Assembly: GCA_029834535.1 (NCBI GenBank) | Contig: JAQMWT010000521.1 | Span: forward strand, 62,001 to 126,000 | From: Chrysophaeum taylorii | Taxonomy: Eukaryota > Sar > Pelagophyceae > Pelagomonadales > Pelagomonadaceae | DNA length: 64,000 nucleotides | Reading direction: 5' to 3' | Shown: positions 7,836 to 56,372 of the stretch, piece after piece | Layout of the letters: each line of letters starts with the position of its first letter | Numbering within the stretch: position 1 is the stretch's first letter | Notes under the pieces: model-generated | Databases searched by the model: none | What the model was told of the DNA's origin: nothing | Seen by the model: only the letters and a program-made list of their open reading frames with translations | Made by a program: the position numbers and the translations under genes

Positions 7836-10800
7836 CTACCAAGTGCAGCCGCAAAAAGTACAACGTTGTATGTCCAGATCACATCTTTCGGTGACTGTGC
7901 GCCAGTCACCGTGCAGTACGTATGGTGCCCAAAAGTACGGCGACTTGAAGTTGCGATTTTTACGCAATTGAAGCATGGCATGTTGCAGAGCGCGCGCTTT
8001 ATCCATCGGACACCGCTCGCTCAAGATGAGCGAATAAAAGCAGCTCATGACATCTGCAGTAGCCGCCTCATCCGATTTCCACAGGGTTGCCAAGATCGCG
8101 CTGGCACCAGCAAAGTGGAAGGAAGGAATCAACCCTAGTGGTTCGTCTCCTATATTGATTTCATTTGCTCCACTTTCGCAAGCAGCTAGCGTTACGAGTT
8201 CTGCATCGATTCCTCGCAGGTCGAACACCTCACTCGCAGTCAACACTTCCATCCCGTACAATTTCAGGTGCGATTGCATAGGGTTTTGCGGTGAGAATAT
8301 AGCATGGCCATTAAAGTGGATGTGGCTTGCACCTTTGCTGTGGTCTGCAAATGATTGAAGATTGACACCCTCACCAATAAGAGAATGAAAGCCAAATTCC
8401 GAAGCAAGCCGCTCGACGCTCTCAAGAGCTTTGCGGCGATCTCTTGAAGGATCACCAAAGGCAACAAGACGGCGTCGCTTACTTGCGCCACCTTTGTCCT
8501 GGCGCAGTCGGGCATAGCGCAAGAGACTCAAGCTCATCGTATACACAACGGGATTGCGCTCGATCAACAGTCGACCTGAAAGCTCAAGTGCATGGAATGG
8601 GACTCTGTGCAGACAGTCTGATGGAGAGAGTACAAGAAGGTCGCCCTCGCGGGTTGCATGCTCGAGTGGGCGAATGAGTTCATTGAGCCTTTGCCATCGT
8701 TCAGGCTCGTATATCAACGCTTCATCGTCCATCGCATCTTTGATTGTTTCTCGTGCAATTCTTCGTGTCATTTGTAAGCGTTCTACAAAAACAGGTGAGC
8801 GCGAGCTTTTGATGAGAACAAATATGCCCTCATCAAATACTGTCCAGTCGATTGCAGTCCACGTACTGCCGTCTGCCATCTGCATGTCCTGCAATGAAGA
8901 TCCGTCAATCGTAGACCCAGAACAAGCCTCGATGTATTGCTTTAGATATGCATCCTCATTCATCTTCTGGTAGACCGCACGCAGTTCATCTAAAAGGGGT
9001 CCGCGCTCTTCCAGTTGCCTTCTTGAAACACGCGCAGCGAGGTCTCGTTCCTGTTGCAGCACACCGCGCGCTTCACTCGTGGCAGCTTCCAGAAAGCGAG
9101 TGAAGACCCGACGGCCAAGTCCAACGATGTCAGTCAGACTCCGAGCCTTGGCATGCTGCACCACACTCCAAACGTCGTCGGCACGCTTGTAAGAGAATAG
9201 AATTGTAAACTTCAAACAGTATACTCGCCGACTCTCTGCGACGAAGTTCTGCTTTGCTCGCTGCGTTTGTCGAACGTCATCGTGAATGCCGAACTCTCGT
9301 CGAATGTCGTCGTAAGTTTCAGCCGCATGGTCAAGGAATTTGAGGGCATCCCAGTCGTAGCAGGGTTTGGACAGTTTAATCGATGCTTTGTAAAAAAGCA
9401 GGGCCAGCATGTAGTGAGTATTCCCCAATTCTCGGCGCATGGCCGTTCCCTGGTAAAATCGCGCGGCATCTAGCAAGAGTGCACGCGCATTGTTGAGTGC
9501 ATGTAGGAGCTTGCCAAGTGGTGTTGTATTGACGGCATTGAGCGCCATGACCCCAAGAATATAGCAACAGTTAGCTGCATGGTACTGCATGTTCTGAGCT
9601 CGACAGAGAGAATGAGCCTCATACCAGGAGCTGCGGGTCAAATCATGCTCACCCTGCATTTCAAAAACGACTGCTCGTAGTTGAAGCAACTCGGCACGCT
9701 TACTCACTTTCTTTTTGGTATCCAAGAGACTCGGAAGTTCTGCCTCGGCCTGCTCGTAATCTGCAAGTGCAGATTGGAGAAAGTCGCGCCGTTGCCTACT
9801 ACCAAGCTCTGCGCGACGTGCCTGATTCACAAATATGTGTCCTCTCAGCAAAAGCTTCCCAATCGCGTCATCACGACGGTCCGCAGAGACGTCTTTCTCG
9901 ATCCATACCGCCAGCATGTTACGTGCGCACTCGCAGTTGCGTTCAGATGACATCGACCCGAGTTGGTTTGCCATTACAACAATCACGTTGGATGTCTGCT
10001 CAATCGCTCCACACGCCTCAAACTCAAGCCAGGCCGTGACTCCATAAAGCAAGGTCATTTGTGTATCATTGACAGATGCATAGGCGGATGCGGTCAATAG
10101 TTTGAATTGCGCCTGGTTAACGCTTTGGATTCCTGGAAGACGGGCGGTATGTGATGCCAAGAAGCCGAATTCGGGTAATTGATTGTCTTCTTTTGTTTGT
10201 TTGTCAAGAAGTTTCCGGCAGTAAGACACAATTAGTTTGTTGTGCATTGACTCTCTGCAAACCCTGATCGCCTCTGAGAACATAGCGCTACGTTGGTAGA
10301 GAGAGGCGATCGTCAGCCGGTGGAGACTTCGGGCAACGCCCATCCCACACGTTTCTGCGAGAGCTATGGACCTTTCAAGGAACTGCTTTGCAACGTTATT
10401 CTCGCCATTTGTATGGGCAAAAGTCGATGCATCACGAAGTGCACCTAACATGCCGCTGTAATAAGAGATGGCCTCGTACGCAGAGATGACGCCGTTCAGC
10501 GTAGTCACTGAGCTTCCAAGTCTCTCCATAGTCACGAGCGCAAGTTGCCGATCGGCGTCTATTCTTCCGTGACCGTGACCAGCGGCATCGAACAATTGGC
10601 GAGCACGCTTGAGCGGCTGCTCTATCTCCTCTCTGCTACACGATGTTTGTCGACGTTTTTCGCCGAGGGCAAGCAAAGCGCGCGCAGCAAGCACAGGCGA
10701 GTCAGCTTGGAGAAATTCGCGAGAAAGGGCATGAAGTCGGTTACAGCTTGCTTCAACAGGCTCAGACATCGCCAGAAGCAGTTGCGCTTCCATCGCGAGA

Positions 10801-11420
10801 TATCGCCGTGCAGATGATTCTTCCCCAAGCCCGCTAATCGCCTCTTTCATGCGATCAGCGTACTGTCGCTTTGCTCTCGCGTAGCACCTATCTCCGACGC
10901 GAAGAAAGGCAACGGAAGCAGTTAGTTGCATCCGCGCCAACATGTACTGCGCCTCAACCCAGTCTCCCTTCTCAACGCATGTCACATCAACAAAAGCAAC
11001 GAATGTCTCGGCGACAGAGACCAAACTCAATTGGTCGTCAAAGCGAAGGATTTCGATTCGTAAGCGTTCGAGCACGTGTAACAAAACGTCGCCCGCCGTG
11101 CCGCTTGTCCGCCAGTCGACTCGACCCGCCGTCGTGCTCGCTTCGTGATACCGACCTTGAGCTTGCAACGCTCTCGTGAGAATCAAATTCGTGGATGGAC
11201 TCGCTAAGATGGGAGAGTCAAGCGGGATTTTTTCTCCGATGACCTGGTAGTGGCCGAGATGCAGGAGCTGCAATAGTTCCTCATTCGAGAGCGTAGGGAC
11301 TATTTTGTGCGGGCGGCACGTCATGGTCGCGCAGTGGCAAGGGCACCAGAGACGATGCACTCCTGTAGCCTTCCAGTCCGAACCACTGATAAGGAAAACA
11401 AGCACACGCGCATGCTGCAC
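7836..11420 (-). CDS. TPR-CHAT protein (caspase-like CHAT protease domain)
   Basis: A single 1194-codon frame without introns. The N-terminal two thirds is almost entirely helical, TPR-like sequence with recurrent Ala/Leu/Tyr patterns (about residues 90-800). The C-terminal ~300 residues form a CHAT domain, a caspase/separase-clan fold. The expected catalytic pair is present: His1039 in HIHFNGHA (codon near 8305) and Cys1081 in LAACESGA (codon near 8179), 42 residues apart as usual for CHAT. It is followed by the conserved GASAILATLWKSDE strand and ends with a typical HGDWR tail. Met1 may not be the start: Met33 (near 11324), just before the helical region, is equally plausible. In bacteria and fungi TPR-CHAT proteins act as regulated proteases, often in defence or cell-death pathways. 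Substrate and role here are unknown, and the neighbours (repeats) give no clue. Family assignment is strong; function is open. Confidence 0.93.
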   Translation of the reverse strand: MQHARVLVFLISGSDWKATGVHRLWCPCHCATMTCRPHKIVPTLSNEELLQLLHLGHYQVIGEKIPLDSPILASPSTNLILTRALQAQGRYHEASTTAGRVDWRTSGTAGDVLLHVLERLRIEILRFDDQLSLVSVAETFVAFVDVTCVEKGDWVEAQYMLARMQLTASVAFLRVGDRCYARAKRQYADRMKEAISGLGEESSARRYLAMEAQLLLAMSEPVEASCNRLHALSREFLQADSPVLAARALLALGEKRRQTSCSREEIEQPLKRARQLFDAAGHGHGRIDADRQLALVTMERLGSSVTTLNGVISAYEAISYYSGMLGALRDASTFAHTNGENNVAKQFLERSIALAETCGMGVARSLHRLTIASLYQRSAMFSEAIRVCRESMHNKLIVSYCRKLLDKQTKEDNQLPEFGFLASHTARLPGIQSVNQAQFKLLTASAYASVNDTQMTLLYGVTAWLEFEACGAIEQTSNVIVVMANQLGSMSSERNCECARNMLAVWIEKDVSADRRDDAIGKLLLRGHIFVNQARRAELGSRQRRDFLQSALADYEQAEAELPSLLDTKKKVSKRAELLQLRAVVFEMQGEHDLTRSSWYEAHSLCRAQNMQYHAANCCYILGVMALNAVNTTPLGKLLHALNNARALLLDAARFYQGTAMRRELGNTHYMLALLFYKASIKLSKPCYDWDALKFLDHAAETYDDIRREFGIHDDVRQTQRAKQNFVAESRRVYCLKFTILFSYKRADDVWSVVQHAKARSLTDIVGLGRRVFTRFLEAATSEARGVLQQERDLAARVSRRQLEERGPLLDELRAVYQKMNEDAYLKQYIEACSGSTIDGSSLQDMQMADGSTWTAIDWTVFDEGIFVLIKSSRSPVFVERLQMTRRIARETIKDAMDDEALIYEPERWQRLNELIRPLEHATREGDLLVLSPSDCLHRVPFHALELSGRLLIERNPVVYTMSLSLLRYARLRQDKGGASKRRRLVAFGDPSRDRRKALESVERLASEFGFHSLIGEGVNLQSFADHSKGASHIHFNGHAIFSPQNPMQSHLKLYGMEVLTASEVFDLRGIDAELVTLAACESGANEINIGDEPLGLIPSFHFAGASAILATLWKSDEAATADVMSCFYSLILSERCPMDKARALQHAMLQLRKNRNFKSPYFWAPYVLHGDWRTVTERCDLDIQRCTFCGCTW

Positions 11421-11446
11421 ATGCCAGTCCTATAGTCGTCTCTAGG

Positions 11447-12020: not shown

Positions 12021-13620
12021 GTGGGGAAATCAGCGAAGATACCGGTGGTTGCGCACACGCTCCGCGGACGATATGACTCGACCCTCCGATTGATCAAGGC
12101 TTATTTGCCTGAAGCAGAATGGTCATCGTCGATGTGTATAGCGTCTCCACCCTGCGTTCATTCCGCACTCTGCAACTTGACATCCAGAGATGTTGCAAGG
12201 GTGTTATGGCCACTAACTGGTCGATGAAGCTGTGCAAAATGGCTGGCTTCATTATGTGGCTGATCGAACAGGAGGCGTCCATTATTTCTTATATAGCGCG
12301 CTTACACCCTTACGTGTACGTCGTCAATTTTCATGATACCACGCCCACTCTGATGAGCTCTCGCGTGCGATTGTTGGTTTCCAGTCACCCACTGCACTTG
12401 CAAGAGGCTCCGAAGACATGTGTGAACATGCAACAAAAATTTGCTGCAGCTTTAGGTTATGCTCATGAACGCCACCTGCTCCAGCTGAATAATCTTGGCT
12501 CCTCCCGAGAAGCAACAGATACAGCCTACACCGTTACGCGGGTTCCTCTTCGTTTGGGACCGCATCGCTCGGACACTCAGCCTTTGACTCTCGAGATGAC
12601 GGCCGAGTTGCCTACGATGCCGGTGGACCATGATTGGGCTAGCTTGTCTAAGACAGACTCGTTCAAACATTTCGCGTCTGTCGTCCCTCCAGACACTCTT
12701 GCGATTTTAGCAGTCGATCTGCACAACTCCGTGACCAGAGGTTTCCGCCAAAGTGCCGAAGTCCTGCGGACCGCGTTGGGCCCGACAGATCGATCCTTTG
12801 AGCAGTATTTGCGAATCTCCGACACCACCTTTCGTCACGTACAGATTCCGCTGTTAAATACGCGTACTCGTGTCGTTAAGTGGGTGTCAAAGGATGATCT
12901 CCAGGATCCCACTAAATGGGAACCGCCAGAAGTCCCTATGCTTCCGCTTCCAACAGATGCGCCGGGGACGGCTCATGCTTTTTCTGCTGGGCCACCCCGA
13001 CAATCAAAAGTGGACGTTCCGCCGGATCCTGAACCTGAACAGGAGCCGAAAGTAAGGAGCGAGCCGAATGTGCGCGTCAAAGGTGAAAAGATCAATAAGA
13101 GCCACCATGAGGTGAGGTTCAAATACGAAGAAAAGTTCGATGTGCCATGGAAGGATGCGCCGCGCGATGCGGACGGTGTACCGTTACCGCAGACTCCCGA
13201 GCACGTCAAGGACAATGATGCGATGAAAGTCGTAATTCCGACGAAGGAATATGTCGAAAAGGTTGTTCGAGATCGGGGAATTCCCGACAACCCGCATCTG
13301 GACGATGATGCGAAGATGATGTTGAGCCACTGCGTGCAATACGCGTGGGCTTTCTTTGATCCGATTATGAGACCCGTGGACTCGCCACCAGTTTCTCTAC
13401 GATTTAAAGACGCAAACCCACGACCGATCAAGATGACGCCTTATACGTTGACGCCAGCAAAGCTCGAGTGTCTCAGAAAGCAGATCACTGAGTGGTGTCG
13501 CGATGGAGTCATCCGACCGGCGAACTCTCCGTGGGGATTCCCTGTACTGATGCTGCCTAAGAAGGGAGCAGAGGCCGGGACGTCGAATGCTTTTCGTGCC
13601 GCAGTTGACTTGCGTCAGTC
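12021..13620 (+). mobile_element. Ty3/gypsy fossil, partial copy carrying a methyltransferase-like part
   Basis: A partial pol region of the same family as the element at 42408-53277, recognised by collinear similarity. The methyltransferase-like part comes first. It has an SPPC motif at about 12144-12155 and an SRVR motif near 12360, matching TPPC and TRRR of the other copy. A linker follows. Then comes the start of reverse transcriptase about 13430-13610 (LRKQITEWCRDGVIRPANSP, FPVLMLPKKG, AAVDLR). The two copies share the block FKYEE.FDVPWK.APRD.DG in the linker. The copy is broken and only part of an element remains; no LTR was found next to it. Repeat copy A lies against its left edge. 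Divergence from the other copy is high at protein level, implying old separation of two sublineages. Confidence 0.85.
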
Positions 13621-15248: not shown

Positions 15249-16305
15249 CTAACTACTAATCGACAGATGTTTGTCTGTCTGTCTGTTTGTTTGTTTGTCT
15301 GTCTGTTTGTCCCTCGATTTAGGGTAAGGATCAGGTAGGCGCGAGAGTAAGGATCAGGTAGAAGCGAGAGCCAGACAGTGATCCTCCAAGCCGTCTACGG
15401 CGACCTCGCAGACTATTTCCACGACCCGCGGCGGCTCTTTCAGCGCGCCATTCTCACGCCCCGTCGAAACGATGTTGTCGATGCTGACAACGCGCGCATG
15501 ACCGCGGCCTTTTTTTCCCGAAGACGAGGCGTCGGAGTTCTTTTCGGCCGACTAGGTTGGGTCGGAAGCCGACGCCTCGCTCTTTACAGTCGAGTTTTGA
15601 ACTCCCTGACAACCAACGGCATGCTGACTTTGATCGCGAGCTTAAAGTCTTCGCAACCTCGACCCGTCGCACGGCCACTGCAACGGTACCAGATACATGA
15701 TCGATCGTGTCGTTGTCACCGAGGCTCCTCCAACCTGTATCCCGTAAGGCCCGCCGACGCCAAACGATCACCAAGAGCCAGGGCCAGACGCCCCGCGAGG
15801 TCGGCGTCCTCTTGCCCACAAGCCCGTCTTCTGTCACGTCCAGCTCTACGTGGCTCTCTGTCGATCGGCAACCCCGAGAATATGCTCTTCTGAGTCGACG
15901 ACTCCACCCTACCTCACACGTGCTCCGCAATACCGATAAGCCCCCTCCCGGCGTCTACACGCGCACTGTAGGTGAACTTACTGGGACCAGGTGAACTAAC
16001 TGGGGTTTGAGATTGGGATAGGTGAATATAGTGACCAGGTGAACTTACTGGGACCAGGTGAACATACTGGGGTTTTAGAGCAAATAGAGCAAAGGGTTTT
16101 TAGAGTAAACTCACTCAAAGGTAGGCGGCGCGTGCGGATCGAAGCAGCTTAGATTGGCGGAGGCGAGAGCGACGAGCTCAAAGGAGTTGGTGTGAGCTAG
16201 GTGAACTTACTGACCAGGTGAACTTATATGAAACTTACTGGGAACCAGGTGAACTTACTGGGGTTAGAGATTGGGACTAGGTGAACTTACTGGCCTGCAC
16301 TTGTC
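15249..16305 (+). mobile_element. Helitron fragment, copy 1 (helicase C-terminus and 3' repeats)
   Basis: Homologous along about 1 kb to 53357-54405. The coding part carries C-terminal Helitron (PIF1-like) helicase signatures: YGDLADYFHDPRRLFQRAIL with TPRRNDVVDADN (15390-15490), LNSLTTNGM near 15600, and KSQGQTPREVGVLL near 15775-15815, where functional Helitrons read TINKSQGQT...VGVYL. The frame shifts between these blocks and QLYVALSR is degraded, so it is a pseudogene. Upstream is a TGTC/TTTG microsatellite (15268-15310). Downstream, 15970-16300 holds many degenerate copies of AGGTGAACTTACTGG. No intact 5' TC or 3' CTRR end with hairpin could be fixed. Confidence 0.8.
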
Positions 16306-42407: not shown

Positions 42408-42719
42408 TGTGGCGGTAACCCTTACTTACACCGCCATCCTTACCCCTAGTTCTATCGAGTTCTCTACCCCACTTCTACTTCCAACCCCTGACGCACGTAT
42501 TGCAACGCTACCAGGCGCCTCCCTCTTTCTTTCAAATCGACTAATCTCAACCATAAATCATCATTTCACGAGTCTTCGGATTGAAGCTCGTGGGCAGTTT
42601 GAAGAAGTTTGATCGACAGGAAGGAAGCGCTCCTCAACCCGCTCGGCACCCTCGAGACGTCGAGGACACGGTCGAAGCAGGGTAAGAAGTCAGCGCGCAT
42701 AATCCTCTTTCCTGCCGCA
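42408..42719 (+). repeat. 5' LTR of the Ty3/gypsy element
   Basis: Begins TGTGGCGGTAACCCTTACTT and ends CCTGCCGCA, about 312 bp. It matches 52952-53277. The typical TG...CA termini are present. A sequence starting TGGTGGAGGAGG at 42722 is in the position of a primer-binding site; the tRNA is not identified. Confidence 0.92.
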
Positions 42720-45700
42720 GGTGGTGGAGGAGGATACGAGAAATTGCTACATCGGCGAGATCTCCTCCGAACCTGCAACCGCAAGTCAAGCGTTGGGAAC
42801 AACACAAGCACCGCCGGTAGTTGCCGCGGGGAAAGGGTCACCCCCGAAGCTCTTCAAGGCGCTCGAGAGAAGACTAGCACACGTAACGTGCTCCGTACGA
42901 TCGTCGACGACGAGATCGTACGCCCGCGCGAAGACACGCACAACAACAAAAGAAGGGTACCCAGCCGAGACAACATCTCTCGGTATCACCACCAGTTTGG
43001 GAACTGAGTGGCAAAGAAGCTCCCCGACGTGGTCCTGAGCGGAGCGTCGAACGCGGCATACGTGTGAAAAACGTATATTTTGCGCGGAATTTGGAGACGA
43101 GCATCGACTCGCCCGAGGACAACCAAAGAGCCGACCACCGGAAAAGAGTGAGCGGAGTCCGAGAAGACGGGCCAAGCCAAACAGAGGCACTGAAAGAGAC
43201 AGCGTCAGCAGCAATGCCGAAGCGGCGCATCATACGAGAGAAAGACGTCCCCCGCGACGCCGGGAGAGAAGGGGCGGAAGAAAAAGAGACCCCGCCGACG
43301 CAGCCACCCGCGCCGGCGCCGGCCGCCGCACACGAGCCAGGCCGAGAAACCGAAAGACCGGCAGAAGCCGAAGAGAGAAAAGACGAAGAGTCGACGGGCG
43401 AGCAGCCGAGCGCCCCGGCCACGACTCGAACCGAACCCGCCGATGAGCGCGCCGTCGAAGGCTCCCGAGCAGTTCGCGAGCTGCGGGCGATGGTATCGTT
43501 GCTCCAAGACCAGATGCAGCAGCGCAATCGGCAAGATGAAGAAGTGCGAAGCCTGCTGCGAGAGCGGATCCGAATACAAGATGAGGAGAGTCGAAAGCAA
43601 GCGCAAGAGCGCGAGGAGGAGCGCGATCGGTTTGCAAACCGAGAGATACAGAAGCAGGCGCAAGAGCGCGACGAAGAACGCAGCTTGATCGCCCAAGAAA
43701 TCGCGGCGCAGATCGAAGAGGCGGCGACGGCTCGACTCGAAACCGCGACCCGTGAGGAGAAGGAGGCCCTTCAGAACGAGCTCCGACGCGCTCGCGAGGA
43801 CGCGCAGCACGCTCGCGAAGCTGCAGCGACCGAAATCCAACATCTTCGGGAGGAGATGCGCTCGCTCAAGACGCGTCGAGAGCAGCGAGCGCAACCACCG
43901 CGACCCGAATCACCTCGCCCGACTCGAACCACGACGAATCCGACTCCGAGCCGCCGAGCAGCGAACCGCCGGTCCGACGCGCGGAGCAAGCGAATCGTCC
44001 GCGAGCCCACGAGGAAGAGAAGGAACCCACGGAAGCCGACAAGATCGTCGCCGCACTGGTGAGAGCCGCCACGGGCCGAGGGCTATCCACCGCCGCCCTG
44101 GCCTCCCGAAGATACGAGGACGCGGCTGCCCCGAGGCACCGACGTCTCAAGCTGGAGATGATCAAGCTGGACATCGAGGGCAAAGACCAGCGGCAGTTCG
44201 ATCACGAGGCCGCCCTCATCGTCGGAGAGTTGTCGAAGGACCACTATTCTATTAGCTCGCTGTCGTTTGGCGTCGCGGACGACGTGCGCCAGGCCGTGCT
44301 ACCTACTACGTTGGAGGAAGGGCGAATGGCGGCCGAGGCACTGTGTACCTCGTTCGGCCACCCCGAGTCGTTCTATCTGCAATTCCACGCCGACAGCCAG
44401 ACGCCGTACAAGGAACAGATCCGACAGCTTCGCGACACGAACCTCTCCCACGTCCAGCGGATCCTCCGGCAGCTCCGCCAAGCCTGCCGAACCGCGCCTC
44501 GACCGGAGGAAGCCTTCCACAAGGTCCGGAACATCACGCAGGCCACCACGCCGAAGAAGGAGGGCGAATCTTGGGTCCTGACCTACCTCAAGTCGCTGCA
44601 GAAGGAGGCTACGGCCTATACAGCGTTGACGGGAACGTCGATGGATAGCATCGAGATGATTCACTCACCAAATGAATGACCGCCGGACTGGCATCGACGA
44701 AGCTGCAACAAAAGATTCATATGGGGCGGTGCGATCAGCCTAGATTACAGTACAACACCTTCGCAGATGTACAAAGTCTAATCCTCCGGCACGAGATCCA
44801 GCTTTTCAACGCGTGGCAGAAGGCACACCCCGGCAAGACCACCAACCCGCCGCCATGCGACCCGCGCGACCGCAAGAAACCCGGCGCCTACGCGACGCAA
44901 CAGGAAGAGCCAGAGGTAGACGATGATCCGAGGCCCAGTATGCGAAACAAGGACACATGGACGCAGAAGATGAGCAACCGCGGAAACTACAAGATCGACC
45001 ATACGCGAAACGCGGATGGTTCCCTCCGATGCCCGCGCCCGAACGCGTACAAGCAAGCGATGAAAGCGCGGCGACGGCAGGGACAAGAACCCATCCTTTA
45101 CGGAGCCTGGAAGAGAGAACAGAAAGTAGCACGACCCAACGGCGACCGACGACCGCCCGCGAATGCGAACGCCACCGCCTCGCCGGGTACTGGCATGGTG
45201 CAGGTCAACCAGGTCGAAGCGATCGTCGAGCGCATGCTCGCAGCGCGAAACTCCTCGAGCTCGAGTACGCAATCCTCGATGGACTACGCGGGGTCTTTCT
45301 TTGGGCTTCAATCGAGGGACGGAACCGCCGGATGCTCCCTCGCCGACGCCACGCCCCTCGGGTCGGCCAGCAGCACCGACGGAGAGTTTTTTGGAGCCCT
45401 GCGGCCGGTCTCCGTGCCCCCGGTGACACCACCGAAAATGCCGGGCCCCCCGAAGCGGACGTCGATTTGGAGCAAACGGTCGACCCGCGCTCGCTCGCCC
45501 CCCAGGTGCCCGATGCCGATCAGCCAGATCCCGGGGAGAACGCGCGATCGCTTCTAGTTGAGTCGACCCTCCGAAACGCCGCCGACCTCGAGCGGAAACT
45601 GTGCGAGTCGAAATATCCTCGGTCGCCAGCGACACCTCCGAAACTTCGAGTTCGCACGCCCGAGAGGATGTTGCCAGTCGAATCAGCGGCGCCACCACGC

Positions 45701-47959
45701 ACGTCCCGCACGAATCGGACACGGACGTCTCCGGCCTCATCGAGGACACGTCCGACAGCGACGACGACTCCGACTCGAGCACGGACGCGACCAATGAGCA
45801 CTCGTGCGACTCCGACAGTGATAGTAGTGACCGCGACAAAGACTCCGACCCCGACGCGAACCGAACGGGATCACCGGAGGCAAATTCGCGCGACGATGAA
45901 GAACTCCCCGACCTCATCGACGATGACACCGATTTGGACAGCGACAGTTCGGACGAACGCGAAAGTCAACCCGGAGAGTTGTTCCAAGCCTTAGTCAGTC
46001 ATCCGCACGGACCCAAAACCGCCAAGGCAATAACAGATGCCCTTCTCCAAGCTTCTGCGAACCCGCGCCGACAAAAAAAAACCTGCGGATGCGGTCGGCT
46101 ACGTGCCCGACCGAAACGACCACGACGCCACCGGCAGCACAACCGACAACGATATCATCCCCGATTCAACGTCGACGGCGACGCCGCACTCTCCCCCAAG
46201 GGGGTACCCGCCGCGGACACGGCCGCGATATTGGCAGCGGAAACAGCGAGTCGCCACCAGTCGGAAACAGCGAGTCGCCACCAGTTGAGGAACCGATCAC
46301 GCCGGAAGAACCTGAAGGATCGGACAAAGCAGCCGAAACCGACAGGGATCCCTCGCGCGGAGCTCGAGAAGAGACAAGCCTCGAGGAAGTTCCCGGCTCG
46401 AGAACACCCCGCGTGCGGCAAAGGAGGAGCGCCAGATTGAGAACTCCGCGCCGAGTGTTGGGGATACGGACGAGAATCCAGCAACTCTGGAACAAAAAGA
46501 GTCCAGAGCGCACCCGAATCCCTGATTCGAGAGCGCGAAGAAAGAGGCCGGGGATTGCAGCGAGGAGAATCCAGGAGCTACCCGCCGACCCGCGAACGCA
46601 CCGACAGAACTGGTGGTCGAGAGCCCGCCGTCTCGTCGCGGGACGCGCGCACGTATCGATGCCGATGGCAGGGACAGAGGACGACGCGATGTGCATGCAC
46701 TCATCGTTCAACGCCGAAACGATCGACAGAGACCTGCGCGTCCTCAACTGCTTGGAAGCCGGCTTCCTAACGTTCGTGCCCATCCATATATTCGACAAAA
46801 CGGGCAAATCATCGTCTGCCACGGTGATTGGGGTGGACGGAATGGCCGACGTCACCTACATCTGTCGCGACCTCGCCCGCCTAATGAGGAAGCGAGGCAT
46901 GTTACTGGACAGCGGCAAGCTGCCTTTCGAGCGCACGCTCTTCGGATCGGGAAAGAACGCGTCCTCGATTTCTGAGTGGATCGCCCTGCGAATATCCGTA
47001 TCGGACGAAATGGCCGTGCCGGTCGTCGCCATCGTGGTACACACACTTTCTGCTGGGAGCCCGCGACATTCGAGCCTTGGGCGCCGTTGTCGATTACCCC
47101 CGAGACCGAATTTCCTTTTTGCGAACCCAAACACAGTCTTCCAGATGATGAAGCTACCGCACGCAGGGAAGATTGTTCGGTCACCCGCCATTCTCTTTCG
47201 GGCAGCCTACGAAGCACACCCCGTCGTAGCGCCAATTTACGGGTTCCGGGGGCAAGCGCTGCGCAGAGTCGGAGTCAAGGTGGCGAGAGAGCTCTTCCAC
47301 CCCTACTCACGGCAGAGGAACTCCTCTCGCCGCCTCCTCAGCGGGCGTCGGCCGCCATCACCTTATAGCCGAGGACCCATCTATGCCGAGCAACGACCCG
47401 AAAACGTCCGCGCCCGAGATCCGAGCGTTCGCAACCGGCTCCCTGCGCATCGACCCCGGTCGAACCCACAACATCCCGGTCAAGCGCTGAGCCAAGCGCT
47501 CAAGCCCGGAGAAGCCTTCGTCGCCACCGCGCCAAGCGTGGAGCACCTCGGCGTCGTCGCCGGAACCTGCTCGACACATGACCGCTCCGACCCGGCCGCG
47601 GTGGCCATGTCGTCGATGGACGACACGCCGATGTCGATCCTCCCAGGTCAAGAGCTTGCACGAGGGGAAATCGTCAACTGCCAAGAAGAAGTTCAGGTGA
47701 CAACCCCGCGGCCAAGCGCCGACCCTGGAAACTCACATGAAAGCGAGCACGAGGGCACGGCCTCCTTCACGGTCTCGGTCACCAGTGATCCAACTCCAGA
47801 CCCCGGAGAAACAGACGGCCAAGCATTTCGAACGTCTTCAGTCAAGCCGCGCCTGCAAGGCTCGCAGGCGCAAGAACCGCCGAAGTCCCGGCCTGCCGAA
47901 CAAGCGATCATCGACAAGCACCAGGCGCTCTATTGGATCCCGGAGAACGTGACGCCCGT

Positions 47960-48480
47960 CGTGATGTTCTTCGGCGGGATTGGAGGGGGCACCCAGGGTA
48001 TCTACCGGAGCAATGAATGGTTCGGAACCGCGTATAAATAAGGTCGTGCTCGTCATCGACGCATCCGACACACCGCCAAATAAATCAATGAGAGAAATTT
48101 TCCAGAAATACCCGTCGTCCAGCACACCCTCGGCGGTCGGTACGACAGGGTCCTTTCTCTGGTCAAAGGTTACCTGCATGAAAGCCTATGGCCCACGGCA
48201 CTTTTCGTTGGCACGCCCCCATGCGTCGATTCCGCCTTGTGCAACCTTACGGCCCGCGACGCCGGGAAAGGAGTCTCCGCGACCAATTGGACCATCAAGC
48301 TCTTCCAGCTCTCCGGAGTAGGACGCTGGATCATCGAGCACGCACCTTCCATCCGCTCGAAAATCACGCTGAGGCAAGGTTTCATCACCGTCGTCGACTT
48401 ATGGACGACGACGACGCCGGACCTCATGAGCACCCGTCGGCGCATGATCATCACGAGCTGGCATCTTCAGCTCATCCGAC
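47960..48480 (+). other. DNA cytosine-5 methyltransferase-like part of the gypsy element
   Basis: Motifs appear in the order of C5-methyltransferases. Motif I: FGGIGGGTQG at ~47970-47999. Motif II: VVLVIDAS at ~48043-48066. Motif IV: GTPPC at ~48210-48224; the Cys of PPC is the catalytic nucleophile in the family. Motif VI: WIIEHAP at ~48327-48347, with IE in place of EN. Motif VIII: TRRR at ~48432-48443. The stretch CVDSALCNLT.RD after motif IV also occurs in the copy at 12021-13620. The part lies between the protease-like and reverse-transcriptase parts. A Dam-type adenine methyltransferase (as in DIRS elements) would show D/N-PP-Y/F instead. A substrate-recognition region, if any, should lie in the linker downstream. 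Confidence 0.78.
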
Positions 48481-51400
48481 GTCCCAAAACGTGCGGCACT
48501 ATTCAAGATACCTTCGCCGCCAAACTCGGACTCGACCCTGCGCAGCCTATCATCCAGCGCAGCAACTATGGATGGATGCACGCGAGAGGCCACGGTACCG
48601 ATAATACACCATCACGCGGAACGGGGTACGAACGGGGCGCCTTCGGACACCAAAGCACTCAAACTAGAGGTGCTTGCGGAGGCTCTCACAATGCCGAGCG
48701 ATCTCGCATGGGGTAACCTCGCAGTCACGGACCGAATGAAGCATCTAGCTGCCGTGATACCCCCGTCTTCCATGGCGTACATAGTCCTCGACGCACACAA
48801 CGCGCTCCCGCCCACGCTCCGCAACATCGGAATGGCGCGCCCGAACGTAGTCGTACCCACCGACAAACCCTCCGAAACATACATCATCGAGCGCGCCCGC
48901 TCCGACCGCGCCCGCGTTGGAGCCACCGCACCCGAGCCCCGAAGCGCCCTTGTGAACGTTTCGACTCGCGCAATTCACTGGGTGCCGAACCGCGACCTCC
49001 AGGATAAAGCGAAATGGCAACCGCCGGACCTTCCTTTAACCCCTCCGAAGCCCGTTGCATCAGGGACGACGCACTCATCTTCCCAAGGGGGTACCCGCGC
49101 GAGCAAAAACGATGCAACCTCGAAAGGCGAACCAAGGGACGGAAAACTAACCAAGGAACCAACGAGCGACAAGACCAAAGAGCCCGCCGCCCGGTTCAAA
49201 TACGAGGAATGGTTTGACGTGCCATGGAAAAACGCACCCCGGGACGACGACGGCGCACCGCTACCGCAACAGCCCAACCATCTGAAAGGGAACGAGGCCA
49301 TGGTTCACCCCACGAAAGAAGAGGTGGACAAGGCCGTCGACGAGCTAGGGGCATCCCGAACAACCCGCACCTGGACGAAGATGCCAAACTCATGTTGGCG
49401 CACCGCGTTCGATACTCCCGGGCGTTCTTCGATCCCGTCATGAGACCTGTGGATTCTGACCGGTATCCCTCCGATTCAAAGACGCGGACCCAAAACCCAT
49501 CAAGATGTCGCCGTACCGCCTCGCTCCAGCCAAGATCGAATGCCTTCGACAGCAGATCGCCGAATGGCGCCGAGACGGAGTCGTAAGACCTGCCAACTCC
49601 CCTCGGGGGTTCCCGATCTTCATGCTTCCGAAGAAAGGGGCAGAGCTCGGGACATCTAACGCTCCCCGCGCGGCCGTCGACTTACGTCCGCTCAACGATC
49701 AGTTGGTTGCAGACAGAGGGCCGAACCCGCCGCAAGAGGACGCCCTAGCGTTCCTGGTCGGACGAAGGTTTCCGGACCTCGATCGACATTCGGTGGGGGT
49801 ACCACAACCTTCGACTGGACCCGCAGGCACAGGACGCCGTGACGATGGACAGCCCGCTCGGAGCCCACAGCTTTCTCCGAGACTGCCCTTGGGAGTGAAG
49901 ACCGCGGGAGCCCTCTTCTGCAGGCAGATGACAGCCGACCTCGCGAAATGGACGTACCGCGACCTGGTCAGCTTCATCGACGACATCATCATAGGAACGA
50001 ATAACGTCCACGATCATTTGCAGTGCCTGATCGAAGTCCTCTCCCACTTGGCCTCCAAAGGATACAGTGGCCAGACAGCCAAATTCCACTTGCTCCAAGA
50101 CGAAATCGAGTTCCTTGGTCATATCTCAACCCCCGACGGATTGAAGCCTAACCCCAAAATGTCGGAAGCACCACGAAAGATGCCGATTCCTGGGACGCTG
50201 AAGAAAACCTCCCCGAAGACGCAAATCCGTTCGTTCATCGGGATGAGCAACTACGGCCGGAGATACATCAAGGACTATTCAAAGATCGCGGACCCCTTGC
50301 GACGCCTGACGTTGGAGGAAGTGCCGTTCAAATGGACGCCAGAGTGTGCCAATAGGCGTGGGACACCATCATCGACGCACTAGCGGATTCCCGCGGAGTG
50401 TACCATCCGGATTACGACCTCCCCTTCCACATCAGGACCGATGCCTCCAAAGACGGTCTCGGAACTTATCTCTTCCGAATCGTCGAAGTCCAGGACGACA
50501 AGGGTCACACCGGTCGCGAAGAACGAGTTATCGAGTACTGGAGCCGAGCGGTGCCCAAAGAGATGCGTAATTACGAGCCGCGCCGTCTGGAGCTCCTGGG
50601 AGTGATCCTGTCCCTCGAACACTTCCGCCCGTTCATCGAAGGCCGCCGAACCGTCCTCGAAACCGACCACCGGAATCTGACATTCCTCCAGAACACGACC
50701 CACTCCACCGGACAGCTCGCCCGATGGGCAATGCGGCTGGCCAATTTCGACCCCGAACTCGGTTATAAGCCCGGCAAGTCCCCGAGGATGAGCATCCCCG
50801 ACTGCCTCTCGAGGAATGGGATCGACCATATCATCGAGACCGACGAATTCGGAGACCCGCTCAATCACGCGTACTTGGTCGTGCAAGAGCTGCCGCTCCC
50901 CGACGGCGAAGCCTGATGTCACGTCATCCTCAACTTGATGCAGACCGAGATACCCGAGGACCTCGAAGACCCTCCGGATGATCCGATGGGTTACGCCGCA
51001 TCGCACGCCGCGCAACATCGCAAGAAAGTGGCCCTGCGGTCGCGCAAGCCACCGTTTCAAACCGACGTCGGGCTACAGAAGGAATTCATCGACAAAATCC
51101 CTGACAACATCTCACTGGAAGAGATTGCTGAAGCCCAAAAGGATGACCCTCTACGGGATAGTATCCGCACCGGGGATGAACCAAAGCGATGCTCGCCGCC
51201 GATTCGGAGCCAACGTCCGATATGATGTATGGAAGGGAGTTTTGTACCGGTACGACATCGACCTCCGCCCTCTGATCGTCGCGCCCGCAACCTTGCGAGA
51301 GAGGATCATGCGCATCCACCACAGTTCGCCCCTGGGAGGACATCTCGGACGCGATAGCACCGTCAACGCGATCGCCGAACGGTTCTGGTGGCCGCGCATG

Positions 51401-52937
51401 TCCCACCAGGCTGGAGTCTTCGCCAACGAATGCCTAGTTTGCCAAAAATCGCGACGAACCCCGGAGCCAAAGCGAAAAGGGATGCTCCAGCAGCCGATAT
51501 ACGACGGAGACGGCGCCGTTCTGTGCACGGACCTTTTCGGACCTCTGCCGAGCGCCGGCAAGTCCACGTACATCCTCGTGATGTTCGACCCGTTCTCGCA
51601 CTACTATCTGGTCTTGGACGTCATAAGCACCAAGTACGCCGAAGCCATCTTAGAATCCTTCGTGCGAAACATCCTCCTTCAGGGATTTATTTCTCCCGCG
51701 TATGATCCTCACCGACAATGGTCGCGAGTTCGTCAACCGGTTGCTACGGGCCTTCCTCGTAGAGTTCGACGTCCGGTACAGAACGACGATACCGTACCAC
51801 GCCCAAGCGAACCCCGCGGAGCGAGTCAATCGGTTCCTCAAGGCATTCCTCCGAGCCTGCCTCGAAGGTCGCAGCGTCACCGACTGGCCGGCCTTCGTCC
51901 GGTACGTGTCGTTCTGCTACAACCGAAAGTTCATCCCCGGCACGCAAATCTCCCCGTTCGTGTTGCGTCTGAACCGGCAGCCGATGTTGCCCACGGACTA
52001 CACCTTGTTGGTTCAGCCCGATCCTGTTCTGCCGCGACACCGATCCGACGCCCTCCTGGAGATCAAGCAAAACTTCCAGTATTACTCGAAAGGTCGTCGC
52101 GGAAGCACACGAGCAGGCCAAGAAGACGCACAAGCTCGCGTACGACGCCGATAACATCGATGTCGAATACAACGTCGAATCGCGCGTGCTGCTGTACATT
52201 CCGCAGTCCCAAAACCAATTTCGGACCGGAGTGGCGCGGTCCCTTTCTCATAACCGAGCGCCTTTCGCCCGTCTCGTACAAGATCCGATCTGTTTACGGA
52301 GCCGCCGAGGAGCGAATCGTATCGGTCCAACAGATCACCCCAGTATCGATGCCTCCCGCACTCGACGCCACGATTCGTCGTCCGAGCCCCGGATTCCGCG
52401 ACGAGTACGAGCGCGGCAAGCTCGTCATTTTCCGAATCCCGTCGGCCCGAGACCCCGATTGGCGCAAGAAGCTCTACGTCGCCGAGGTTTTCGAAGACTA
52501 TGATGATCTTCAAGACCGAGTCGCCCTCCACTTTTACTCCGACCTGGGCTCGCGCGACGACCCATCGTATTTCGACCCGACCTCCCTCAGCTTGAGTGTG
52601 TCGCACGCCGAGCCCGGAATTCAAGACGGCACTCGGTCGCGGCTTCACTCGCACCGAGAAACTAACACCTCAGTGCACTCCTTGCGTAACCGACTTCGCC
52701 CCGGACGAGATCGACGTCCTGGTTCCCCGGTTCAAGCTCCAGGGTAAATCAGTTCCTCCCCCGATCGTCCAGCGAGTCAAAGATATTCTCGCGCATCGCG
52801 CGCGCCAAGAACAAGAACAACTCCAAGCTCAACAACGCGATAATCAGACGCGCACTCAAGTCCCGTCCACCGACGGTCCGCGCCGAAACTCTCGTCAGTC
52901 GCACCACCGCCGTCGCTGAGGACAGCAGCTCCCATCA

Positions 52938-52951: not shown

Positions 52952-53277
52952 TGTGGCGGTAACCCTTACTTACACCGCCATCCTTACCCCTAGTTCTCTC
53001 AAGTTCTCTACCCCACTTCCCGTTTACTGGACTCTACTTCAACCCCTGACGCACGTATTGCAACGCCACCAGGCGCTTCCCTCTTTCTTTCAAATCGACT
53101 AATCTCAACCACAAATAATCATTTCACGAGTCTTCGGATTGAAGCTCGTGGGCAGTTTGAAGAAGTTTGATCGACAGGAAGGAAGCGCTCCTCAACCCGC
53201 TCGGCACCCTCGAGACGTCGAGGACACAGTCGAAGCAGGGTAAGAAGTCAGCGCGCATAATCCTCTTTCCTGCCGCA
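52952..53277 (+). repeat. 3' LTR of the Ty3/gypsy element
   Basis: About 326 bp, matching 42408-42719 with few substitutions and one longer indel. Followed about 80 bp later by the second Helitron fragment. Confidence 0.92.
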
Positions 53278-53356
53278 GTGGAGCGTAAATGTGTGTCGAA
53301 AAGCCGCCGGGCTTCGTACGCGTTAGATTGGCGACGTGGGAGGTTAGGGTTAAGTC

Positions 53357-54405
53357 TTAACTACTAATCGACAGATCCTAACTACTAATCGACAGATGTT
53401 TGTCTGTCTGTTTGTCTCTTTGTCTGTTTGTCCCTCGATTTAGGGTAAGGATCAGGTAGGCGCGAGAGTAAGGATCAGGTAGGCGCGAGAGCCAGACAGT
53501 GATCCTCCAAGCCGTCTACGGCGACCTCGCAGACTATTTCCACGACCCGCGGCGGCTCTTTCAGCGCGCCATTCTCACGCCCCGTCGAAACGATGTTGTC
53601 GATGCTGACAACGCGCGCATGACCGCGGCCTTTTTTTCCCGGAGACGAGGCGTCGGAGTTCTTTTCGGCCGACTAGGTTGGGTCGGAAGCCGACGCCTCG
53701 CTCTTTACAGTCGAGTTCGACTCCCTGACAACCAACGGCATGCTGACTTTGATCGCGAGCTTAAAGTCTTCGCAACCTCGACCCGTCGCACGGCCACTGC
53801 AACGGTACCAGATACATGATTGATCGTGTCGTTGTCACCGAGGCTCCTCCAACCTGTATCCCGTAAGGCCCGCCGACGCCAAACGATCGACAAGAGCCAG
53901 GGCCAGACGCCCCGCGAGGTCGGCGTCCTCTTGGCGAAGCCCGTCTTCTGCCACGTCCAGCTCTACGTGGCTCTCTGTCGATCGGCAACCCCGAGGATAT
54001 CCTCTTCTGAGTCGACGACTCCACCCTACCCCACACGTGCTGCGCGATACCGATAAGCCCCCTCCCGGCGTCTACACGCGCACTATAAGTGAACTTACTG
54101 GGACCACGTGAACTTACTGGGGTTTGAGATTGGGACTAGGTGAACTGAGTGACCAGGTGAAACTGGGACCAGGTGAACATACTGGGGTCTTTAGAGTAAA
54201 GGGTTTTAGAGTAAACTCAAAGGTTGGCGGCGCGTGCGGATCAAAGCAACTGAGATTGGCGGAGGCGAGAGCGACGAGCTCAAAGGAGTTGGTGTGAGCT
54301 AGGTGAACTTACTGACCAGGTGAACTTATATGAAACTTACTGGGACCAGGTGAACTTACTGGGGTTAGAGATTGGGACTAGGTGAACTTACTGACCTGCA
54401 CTTGT
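53357..54405 (+). mobile_element. Helitron fragment, copy 2
   Basis: Collinear with 15249-16305, very similar over about 1 kb. It starts with a small duplication of TAACTACTAATCGACAGAT and a TGTC/TTTG microsatellite. The coding relics include HDPRRLFQRAILTPRRND (53540-53590) and DKSQGQTPREVGVLLAKPVF (~53886-53945), followed by QLYVALCR. This is closer to the functional Helitron helicase end (KSQGQT...VGVYLP.PVFSHGQLYVALSR) than copy 1. The frame is interrupted, so it is a pseudogene. The 3' part, 54080-54400, again consists of degenerate AGGTGAACTTACTGG repeats. Its right end lies only about 16 bp before the upstream element of the YCII gene. Confidence 0.82.
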
Positions 54406-54785: not shown

Positions 54786-54827
54786 TAGAAACCCTAATCC
54801 TCAAACCCTTACAACCGTTAGACGTCG

Positions 54828-56372
54828 ATGCGACGATACGCCAACTGGTCTCCGGCGGCTATCTTCGGCGAGGGAAAAAGGAAGCGATGGGCAGCGCGGG
54901 TTGTGCAGCTGTGGTGGGTTTCGCGGCGGGAGGCGAAAGCGCGTCGGCGGGCAAGGGAAATGCAGCGTCGTCTGCGGATAATGGCTGCAACGGCCCTCGC
55001 AACCGCGTGGCGGGCGCGCGCCGGGAGACTCAACCTGGCTGAGAGGGAGAGACGGGCGCTCGTCATCGACCGTCTAGCCCGCGGCCATCTTAGCCGACGA
55101 CGAGCTCGAGAATCACGGCACGCAGCGGTGTGCATTCAGCGTTTGGGCCGCGGGCGTATTGCCCGACAACGCGCCGAGCGTCAGCTAGAAGCTGCGTTAA
55201 GAATTAGTCGGGTAGCCAAAGGACATCTCGGCCGAGCCAAGCACGAGAGACACAGGCAGCGCGCGGCGCTCGTCATCGACCGTCTGGCCCGCGGCCATCT
55301 TAGCCGACGACGAGCTCGAGAATCACGGCACGCAGCTGTGTGCATTCAGCGTTTGGGCCGCGGGCGTATTGCCCGGCAACGCGCCAAGCGTCAGCTAGAA
55401 GCTGCGTTAAGAATTAGTCGGGTAGCCAAAGGACATCTCGGCCGAGCCAAGCACGAGAGACACAGGCAGCGCGCGGCGCTCGTCATCGACCGTCTGGCCC
55501 GCGGCCATCTCTGCCGACGACGAGCTCGAGAATCACGGCACGCAGCGGTGTGCATTCAGGGTTTGGGCCGCGGGCGTATTGCTCGGCAACGCGCCGAGCG
55601 TCAGCTAGAAGCTGCGTTAAAAATTAGTCGGGTAGCCAAAGGACATCTCGGCCGAGCCAAGCACGAGAGACACAGGCAGCGCGCGGCGCTCGTCATCGAC
55701 CGTCTGGCCCGCGGCCATCTCTGCCGACGACGAGCTTTCATGGCTCGACGAAACGAGCATGCAGCGTTGGTCATCGACCGTCTGGCCCGCGGCCATCTCT
55801 GCCGACAACAAAAGGCCCAGAGAGAACGAGCGGCGTTGGTCATCGACCGCGTGAGCCGAGGGCACGCTCGCCGACGACGAGCGCGCGTCGAAGTTAGGGC
55901 AACGGTGGTTATCCAAGGGCTCGCGCGCGGGCGGCGTTGCCGACGGGCGGCAGTAGAGGCGCGCGTCGCGGCGATGGTCCTCGGGCGCGTGGGTCGCGGC
56001 GCCCTCGGGCGCAGCGTCGCGCGCACCGCGCGACACTTGGCTCGGATGCGGTTCCGATGTCGGAACTGTGGCGCCGTCGAACCGACGGGCGAGTACTGCA
56101 AACGGTGTGGCTACCGCCGTCCGCCGCGAGAAGATGCCGACCTCTATCTCCCGGGACCCCCCAGACTCCCGAGGCGACGCCTCTCGTTGCCAACCCCCGA
56201 ATTGGTTTCGCCGTCGGGCCGCGACCACCCGACGGGCACGCTGTTAAATCGGGGACTAAAAGTGGCGGCTAAGACCGCCCTCCGCGCGCAGCAGCTCGAA
56301 CACCCGACCCGGCTCCTTCGACCAGCATACCGACGGTCGAGCTTCGACGCCAACAGCCGCCCCTTGTTGTGA
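54828..56372 (+). CDS. IQ-motif array protein with C-terminal zinc ribbon
   Basis: A 514-residue intact frame. Residues ~70-400 contain about 14 consecutive ~23-residue IQ-like motifs: AAVCIQRLGRGRIARQRAER, AALRISRVAKGHLGRAKHER, AALVIDRLARGHLSRRRARE. Three motifs make a 70-residue (210-bp) unit repeated with near identity from 55056, 55266 and 55476, then partial units. Only one motif in three keeps Gln after the Ile; the others have Asp or Ser. IQ motifs bind calmodulin or myosin-type light chains, so a calcium-linked scaffold is likely. C-terminal C411-x2-C414-x9-C424-x2-C427 (CRNCG...CKRCG) is a zinc ribbon. The tail is Pro/Arg-rich. Words ACCCTAATCC and ACCCTTACAA lie 13-37 nt before the ATG. 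Confidence 0.85.
   Translation: MRRYANWSPAAIFGEGKRKRWAARVVQLWWVSRREAKARRRAREMQRRLRIMAATALATAWRARAGRLNLAERERRALVIDRLARGHLSRRRARESRHAAVCIQRLGRGRIARQRAERQLEAALRISRVAKGHLGRAKHERHRQRAALVIDRLARGHLSRRRARESRHAAVCIQRLGRGRIARQRAKRQLEAALRISRVAKGHLGRAKHERHRQRAALVIDRLARGHLCRRRARESRHAAVCIQGLGRGRIARQRAERQLEAALKISRVAKGHLGRAKHERHRQRAALVIDRLARGHLCRRRAFMARRNEHAALVIDRLARGHLCRQQKAQRERAALVIDRVSRGHARRRRARVEVRATVVIQGLARGRRCRRAAVEARVAAMVLGRVGRGALGRSVARTARHLARMRFRCRNCGAVEPTGEYCKRCGYRRPPREDADLYLPGPPRLPRRRLSLPTPELVSPSGRDHPTGTLLNRGLKVAAKTALRAQQLEHPTRLLRPAYRRSSFDANSRPLL

Follow-up and report, generated by a model that had tools for sequence, protein, structure and literature searches.

In this study, we identified a copy of a Ty3/gypsy LTR retrotransposon in a stretch of the Chrysophaeum taylorii genome (64,000 nucleotides, referred to here as the window). 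Sequence comparison confirmed that the copy is broken and carries, in its pol region, a domain that appears related to cytosine-C5 methyltransferases. The reading that we favor, that working copies of this element would use the domain to methylate their own fresh DNA copies, is given an even chance. The same genome contains a second retrotransposon family, of the Ty1/copia type, with a methyltransferase of its own.

Architecture of the window element and state of the copy

The element and one related fragment consist of the following parts.

42408..42720, + strand: 5′ LTR, a direct repeat of the 3′ LTR (97% and 98% identity in two blocks)
42887..45557, + strand: gag-like region, assigned by position only, with open stretches in several frames
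46635..46907, + strand: putative protease-like stretch, assigned from its position and a VDGMAD motif found by eye
47925..48800, + strand: methyltransferase-like domain, broken, with an end placed by eye after motif X
49460..50380, + strand: reverse transcriptase (RT) part (RVT_1, 42.1 bits)
50356..50913, + strand: RNase H (RT_RNaseH, 88.5 bits)
51173..52091, + strand: integrase (Integrase_H2C2, 61.3 bits, and alignment to P0001 and to the open relative P0002)
52952..53278, + strand: 3′ LTR, direct repeat, with a G-rich tract just before it
12036..13618, + strand: piece of a related element that spans part of the methyltransferase, the linker and the beginning of the RT, assigned by identity to P0001

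The domain order is protease-like, methyltransferase-like, RT, RNase H and integrase. We assign the element to Ty3/gypsy because an RVT_1-type RT is followed by RNase H and then integrase. The two repeat blocks of the LTRs are separated by a 14-base gap, and no obvious target-site duplication was present at the window element. Two pieces of the gag-like region gave no match when scanned against Pfam. The protease-like stretch shares 40% identity with residues 164-258 of P0001, and no Pfam protease match was obtained in the window element or in the long ORFs of its relatives. In the integrase of this broken copy, the Pfam rve profile reached only 14 bits, which is below its cut-off.

The preliminary description, made from the sequence letters, had placed a cytosine-C5 methyltransferase-like domain at 47960..48480 and had read motifs I, II, IV, VI-like and VIII in it. 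The motifs are located as follows.

47967..47999, + strand: motif I, FFGGIGGGTQG, AdoMet binding by homology, read from the sequence
48043..48066, + strand: motif II, VVLVIDAS, in the neighbouring frame, read from the sequence
48210..48224, + strand: motif IV, GTPPC, with the putative catalytic Cys codon at 48222-48224 (the PPC of relatives is aligned on PCQ)
48327..48347, + strand: motif VI-like, WIIEHAP (IEQE in relatives), by inspection
48429..48443, + strand: motif VIII-like, STRRR, by inspection
48739..48765, + strand: motif X-like, KHLAAVIPP, in a later frame, by inspection, the profile match not being significant

All five motifs of the preliminary description were found in the order it gave, within 47967-48443, but they do not share a single frame, since motif II reads in the neighbouring frame of the broken copy. 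The domain does lie in the proposed interval, but it does not end there; it continues beyond 48480 to the motif X-like sequence at 48739-48765. Stops interrupt frame 0 at 48039 and 48081. Motifs IV, VI and VIII are back in frame 0 up to approximately 48573, near which a second frame change occurs, and the other frame is followed thereafter to motif X near 48765. Because of these stops and frame changes the copy is broken, and it is dead.

The stretch 46584-50213 of the window is identical to contig C25 (L021) over 3630 bases and has the same frame breaks. Therefore, C25 and C521 represent either a recent duplication or two assembly versions of one region. The fragment at 12036..13618 shows 64% and 79% identity to residues 341-407 and 395-868 of P0001, respectively, in two frames. 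Two ORFs with near-identical starts (15351-15893 and 53472-53819) each lie some way downstream of a methyltransferase-bearing gypsy piece. Elsewhere in the window, a 1197-aa ORF on the minus strand (7836-11429) has a CHAT domain (148.5 bits), and an Arg-rich ORF (54822-56372), for which no Pfam match was found, includes three overlapping 273-base copies with 210-base spacing at 55044-55736.

Relationship of the gypsy domain to C5-methyltransferases

The Pfam DNA_methylase profile (PF00145), which the preliminary description had named as the means of checking the domain, gave no match at E ≤ 10 on the window's own pieces. NCBIfam did not find a methyltransferase in these pieces either. The sole Pfam match in a methyltransferase piece of the window was GT_PLOD (E 0.17), and the predicted structure of one window piece had a pLDDT of 32. 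The identity of the domain was instead approached through open relatives. The methyltransferase part of one of them, P0002, is 88% identical to the window over 216 aa and 80% identical over a further 144 aa (E 5e-171).

We searched the genome (70.8 Mb, 697 contigs) with a 210-aa piece of the domain (window 48084-48713). The search gave 688 first-look candidates, and all 150 that were scored match the domain, the window and its C25 twin included. The survey of the host genome proposed in the preliminary description thus finds the domain in at least 150 places, and all genome counts given here are lower bounds. The matched stretch is free of stops in 137 of the 150 candidates, and in 38 it lies in an open frame of at least 1000 aa. 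Subfamily A1, to which the window copy belongs, accounts for 23 of the 150 (78-100% identity to the query). The remaining 127 are 40-49% identical to the query, and those copies that were read split into subfamilies A2 and A3. Across the whole domain, A1 shares 44-51% identity with A2 and A3. In a subfamily A3 member (L053), a 1914-aa ORF encodes DNA_methylase, RVT_1, RNase H, H2C2 and rve in one frame. Since this single ORF spans the methyltransferase to the integrase, the domain belongs to the polyprotein and not to a neighbouring gene. DNA_methylase scores 20.7 bits in this full-length ORF, just below the 22-bit cut-off. A 1560-aa ORF of subfamily A1 (L051) contains RT, RNase H and integrase, and PF00145 gave no match to it at E ≤ 1.

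Among eight aligned relatives trimmed to the domain only, five reached PF00145 with 26.1-26.7 bits (cut-off 22), over motifs I and II only. By subfamily, these were the one A3 member, all four A2 members and none of the three A1 members; A1 is linked to the matching subfamilies by its 44-51% identity to them over the domain. The PHROGs DNA methyltransferase model matched with E values of 5.9e-8 (A2), 1.1e-6 (A3) and 0.03-0.06 (A1). NCBIfam dcm gave E values of 1.4e-3 and 6e-4 for the A2 and A3 members, respectively, far under its cut-off, and none for A1. The best solved-structure matches were Dnmt2 chains, at a marginal E of 0.01, and unrelated chains came next at E 0.5. No DNMT3 chain was present among the solved structures at E ≤ 1.

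A profile of the gypsy family was compared with a profile of nine C5-methyltransferases, consisting of eight phage enzymes and the host Dnmt2. The two matched with a probability of 95% (E 3.8e-8) over columns 19-114, which cover motifs I-IV, and the alignment placed the PPC of motif IV in the relatives on the PCQ of the known enzymes. Against the host Dnmt2 alone, the gypsy profile gave E 6.2e-5, and against the host DNMT5 part it gave no match. As hhalign controls, two comparisons were made with one unrelated window protein, and the gypsy profile matched it with a probability of 0.15%. Two phage proteins matched the gypsy domain weakly (E 0.03 and 0.1), and both are annotated as DNA methyltransferases. 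Taken alone, the region from motif IV onward gave no significant profile match, and the assignment of motifs VI-X therefore rests on inspection and conservation.

The gypsy domain very probably descends from C5-methyltransferases, as judged from these profile matches. The L053 ORF, the PF00145 matches and the profile alignment, all obtained from open relatives, support the earlier proposal of a C5-methyltransferase-like domain inside a Ty3/gypsy pol. Chance likeness, or membership of another Rossmann-fold family, would fit the silence of PF00145 and the lone GT_PLOD match (E 0.17) on the window pieces, but we reject it as extremely unlikely because the domain-only relatives matched C5-methyltransferase models and no competing family at E ≤ 1 in Pfam, NCBIfam and PHROGs, and because of the profile E of 3.8e-8.

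Residue conservation was scored over 43 distinct copies with a readable domain. F25, G27, G30 and both aligned Arg residues of motif VIII are kept in all 43 copies, Cys107 (motif IV) and Glu145 (motif VI) in 42, and Pro106, G29 and D53 in 41. All six tested residues are kept in 32 of 36 full-length open copies. Most C5-methyltransferases have ENV at motif VI, as do the known enzymes that we aligned. The gypsy family has EQE at this motif, in which the Glu is kept, and the profile does not align it.

The dN/dS ratios were estimated from Nei-Gojobori counts. Between A2 and A3, the ratio is 0.057 for the methyltransferase, at a dS of 1.9 that is near saturation, and 0.017 for the RT. Within A2, three pairs have ratios of 0.06-0.07 and two further pairs are without amino-acid change; within A1, six pairs have ratios of 0.11-0.32. 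Saturation affects the comparisons between A1 and either A2 or A3. When A2 and A3 were compared in 80-codon windows, the domain had ratios of 0.07-0.16 in those three of its five windows for which dS could be computed. The region upstream of the domain reaches 0.94, in a doubtfully aligned part with 20% identity. The gypsy methyltransferase domain is clearly under purifying selection, and its constraint is weaker than that of the RT. Some gypsy copies differ by just 1.5% at synonymous sites.

A copia family and the host methyltransferases

A genome search with PF00145 gave 474 candidates, of which 123 were scored; 57 of these matched, and all 57 were compared. One further element family accounts for 55 of them (at least 66% identity to its methyltransferase), and the other two are one Dnmt2 and one DNMT5-like gene. 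In an ORF of the element family (L054, G000:C96:60500-68500), RVT_2 matches residues 1686-1794 (64.7 bits) and rve matches residues 1016-1110 (17.4 bits, cut-off 32.6). We assign this family to Ty1/copia because, in the one ORF examined, an RVT_2-type RT follows the weak integrase match. A fragment at 1916-2347 of the window is 40% identical to copia ORF P0003 in its RT region.

The copia methyltransferase has PCQ and ENV motifs, reaches PF00145 with 36.3 bits and matches the C5-methyltransferase profile from motif II to motif VIII with E 1.1e-8. Its AGGLHQEGF is a degenerate motif I. Beyond motif VIII, a long insert precedes a motif IX-X-like end, which is in register and weakly matched (P 0.023; two of the three alignment rows are the same place). 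An HxD found by eye suggested a 2-oxoglutarate oxygenase in this insert, a candidate that neither Pfam nor solved structures supported. Six pairs of copies have methyltransferase dN/dS ratios of 0.08-0.135.

Neither profile comparison nor tblastn (0 of 57) detected similarity between the gypsy and copia methyltransferases. This absence of detectable similarity suggests that the two are likely to be independent captures and makes a common origin, followed by extreme divergence, less likely. In both families the methyltransferase follows a protease-like part, which in copia was recognized from a DGGASF motif by eye.

The host Dnmt2 matched a solved human-type Dnmt2 with E 3.9e-39. The DNMT5-like host gene (L083:468-6725, G000:C621) encodes 2086 aa without a stop and combines a C5-methyltransferase domain (DNA_methylase, 61.9 bits) with an SNF2 domain (SNF2-rel_dom, 49.8 bits). 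Neither DNMT1 nor DNMT3 was found among the 123 scored PF00145 candidates, searched exon by exon.

Possible function and comparison with known elements

We consider self-methylation the likeliest role of the gypsy domain, with a probability that we place just short of even. The methyltransferase would be translated within Pol and would thereby be present alongside the RT at the site of cDNA synthesis. There it is predicted to methylate cytosine in the cDNA or in the fresh insert, and the copy would benefit either through protection or through the chromatin state that is set. The mark may then be copied by the host DNMT5. According to PMC9246332, DNMT5 of Cryptococcus neoformans maintains methylation and does not start it. 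By analogy, the DNMT5-like gene of the host would offer a route to propagate marks made by the element.

A CpG footprint of self-methylation was sought in two ways, and neither gave a clear signal. The CpG o/e of the window gypsy element is 1.29, against 1.22 and 1.32 in its flanks; four other gypsy loci have values of 1.16-1.28, and the copia loci have lower values of 1.03-1.08. In four copy groups summed, C-to-T singletons were found at 168 of 1432 CpG sites and at 286 of 2994 other sites, a small excess at CpG. The idea in the preliminary description that self-methylation may help the element persist thus receives no clear support from these data. The methylation may be transient, rare or non-CG, or the substrate may be RNA.

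An active methyltransferase that acts on RNA, either the element transcript or the primer tRNA, instead of DNA is rather unlikely. The lack of clear CpG decay would fit such an enzyme, as would the nearest solved structures, those of Dnmt2, a tRNA methyltransferase (E 0.01), and the match of the host Dnmt2 to the gypsy profile (E 6.2e-5). This likeness is mostly confined to motifs I-II, which all C5 enzymes share, and motif IV (PPCV) bears no clear Dnmt2 signature; the sequence itself does not reveal the substrate. RNA methylation has also been suggested for the SymbioLINE enzyme (PMC5890265). The domain might alternatively be a non-catalytic module of Pol that binds nucleic acid or AdoMet and is kept by selection. 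The divergent motifs (PPC and EQE), a second half that profiles do not recognize and a constraint weaker than that of the RT would all suit a binding module, but the Cys, the Glu and the Arg pair of motif VIII are among the best kept residues (42, 42 and 43 of 43 copies, respectively), and we regard this alternative as unlikely. It is very unlikely that the enzyme acts in trans, methylating and silencing rival elements or host genes and not its own element; the presence of two unlike methyltransferase-carrying families in one genome would fit such competition.

With self-methylation as the preferred reading, a broader role can be considered. Through the enzymes that each has captured, the gypsy and copia elements could be the de novo DNA methyltransferases of this genome, with DNMT5 maintaining their marks. 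We think this distinctly unlikely. If it were true, mobile elements would own the starting step of the host epigenome and the host would be left with DNMT5 and Dnmt2 only. A single 70.8 Mb genome combines two families, dissimilar enzymes, many copies and purifying selection, and the only other PF00145 matches among its 123 scored candidates are DNMT5 and Dnmt2. The probable repeated capture in one host, both times beside the protease-like part, points to a selective reason common to both families. Why retrotransposons keep cytosine methyltransferases is a question that this genome could address; because it is small, a methylome together with an enzyme assay could test both self-methylation and the supply of new methylation to the host.

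The preliminary description had left two origins side by side, another capture or kinship with the published elements. A further capture fits the gypsy domain better, given its marginal Dnmt2 matches among solved structures and the absence of a DNMT3 chain there at E ≤ 1, and kinship fits less well. We also take motifs I (LFSGxGG) and IV (PPC) of the gypsy family to be unlike those of DNMT3. A viral or prokaryotic donor was considered and set aside: the gypsy domain was absent from the viral_contigs and genome_contigs collections and the copia domain from viral_contigs, in scans of low sensitivity because each used two short peptide patterns. The host Dnmt2, used as bait in the same contig collections, found nothing. 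In the open-licence literature, we recognized no report of two LTR superfamilies with cytosine methyltransferases in one genome, nor of a non-DNMT3 cytosine methyltransferase in an LTR element.

The statement in the preliminary description that retrotransposon-borne cytosine methyltransferases occur in a charophyte alga and in dinoflagellates agrees with De Mendoza et al. 2018 (PMC5890265). That paper describes a Gypsy-Dnmt3 element in Klebsormidium; in Symbiodinium, the carriers are LINE and DIRS elements and the enzymes belong to an orphan class or to Dnmt3. In yeast, CG methylation is reported there for the DIRS enzymes only; the KnitGypsy-Dnmt3 domain showed no activity, in a test regarded as inconclusive. 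As carriers of DNMT3, PMC12344493 names LTR Copia and DIRS elements and cites De Mendoza et al. 2018, which itself reports Gypsy.

Compared with the descriptions in PMC5890265 and PMC12344493, the elements found here resemble several known systems and differ from each. The orphan and giant-virus-derived eukaryotic DNMTs (PMC12344493) are likewise C5-methyltransferases outside DNMT1-6 that were acquired via mobile elements or viruses. For the gypsy domain, a low-sensitivity search of viral_contigs found no relative. The Dam-like adenine methyltransferases of some DIRS elements (PMC5890265) are also accessory domains of a retrotransposon, but they are structurally unrelated and modify another base. 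Within the present genome, the copia family is like the gypsy family in that its methyltransferase adjoins the protease-like part of an LTR polyprotein and is under purifying selection, whereas it belongs to another LTR superfamily and its enzyme has no detectable similarity. SymbioLINE-Dnmt and SymbioDIRS-Dnmt3 of Symbiodinium (PMC5890265) offer a parallel at the level of the genome, with many retrotransposon C5-methyltransferases (hundreds), Dnmt5 and Dnmt2, and without Dnmt1. The carriers in Symbiodinium are LINE and DIRS elements with orphan-class and Dnmt3 enzymes, whereas those described here are LTR gypsy and copia elements. KnitGypsy-Dnmt3 of Klebsormidium nitens (PMC5890265) likewise has a methyltransferase inside an LTR Gypsy Pol, multiple copies and purifying selection. 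Its enzyme is of the Dnmt3 class and its repeats are DIRS-like, whereas no DNMT3 likeness was found for the gypsy domain among solved structures at E ≤ 1, its element has ordinary direct LTRs and its copy number is far higher. Retrotransposon-borne cytosine methyltransferases are already known, and this case adds to that kind.
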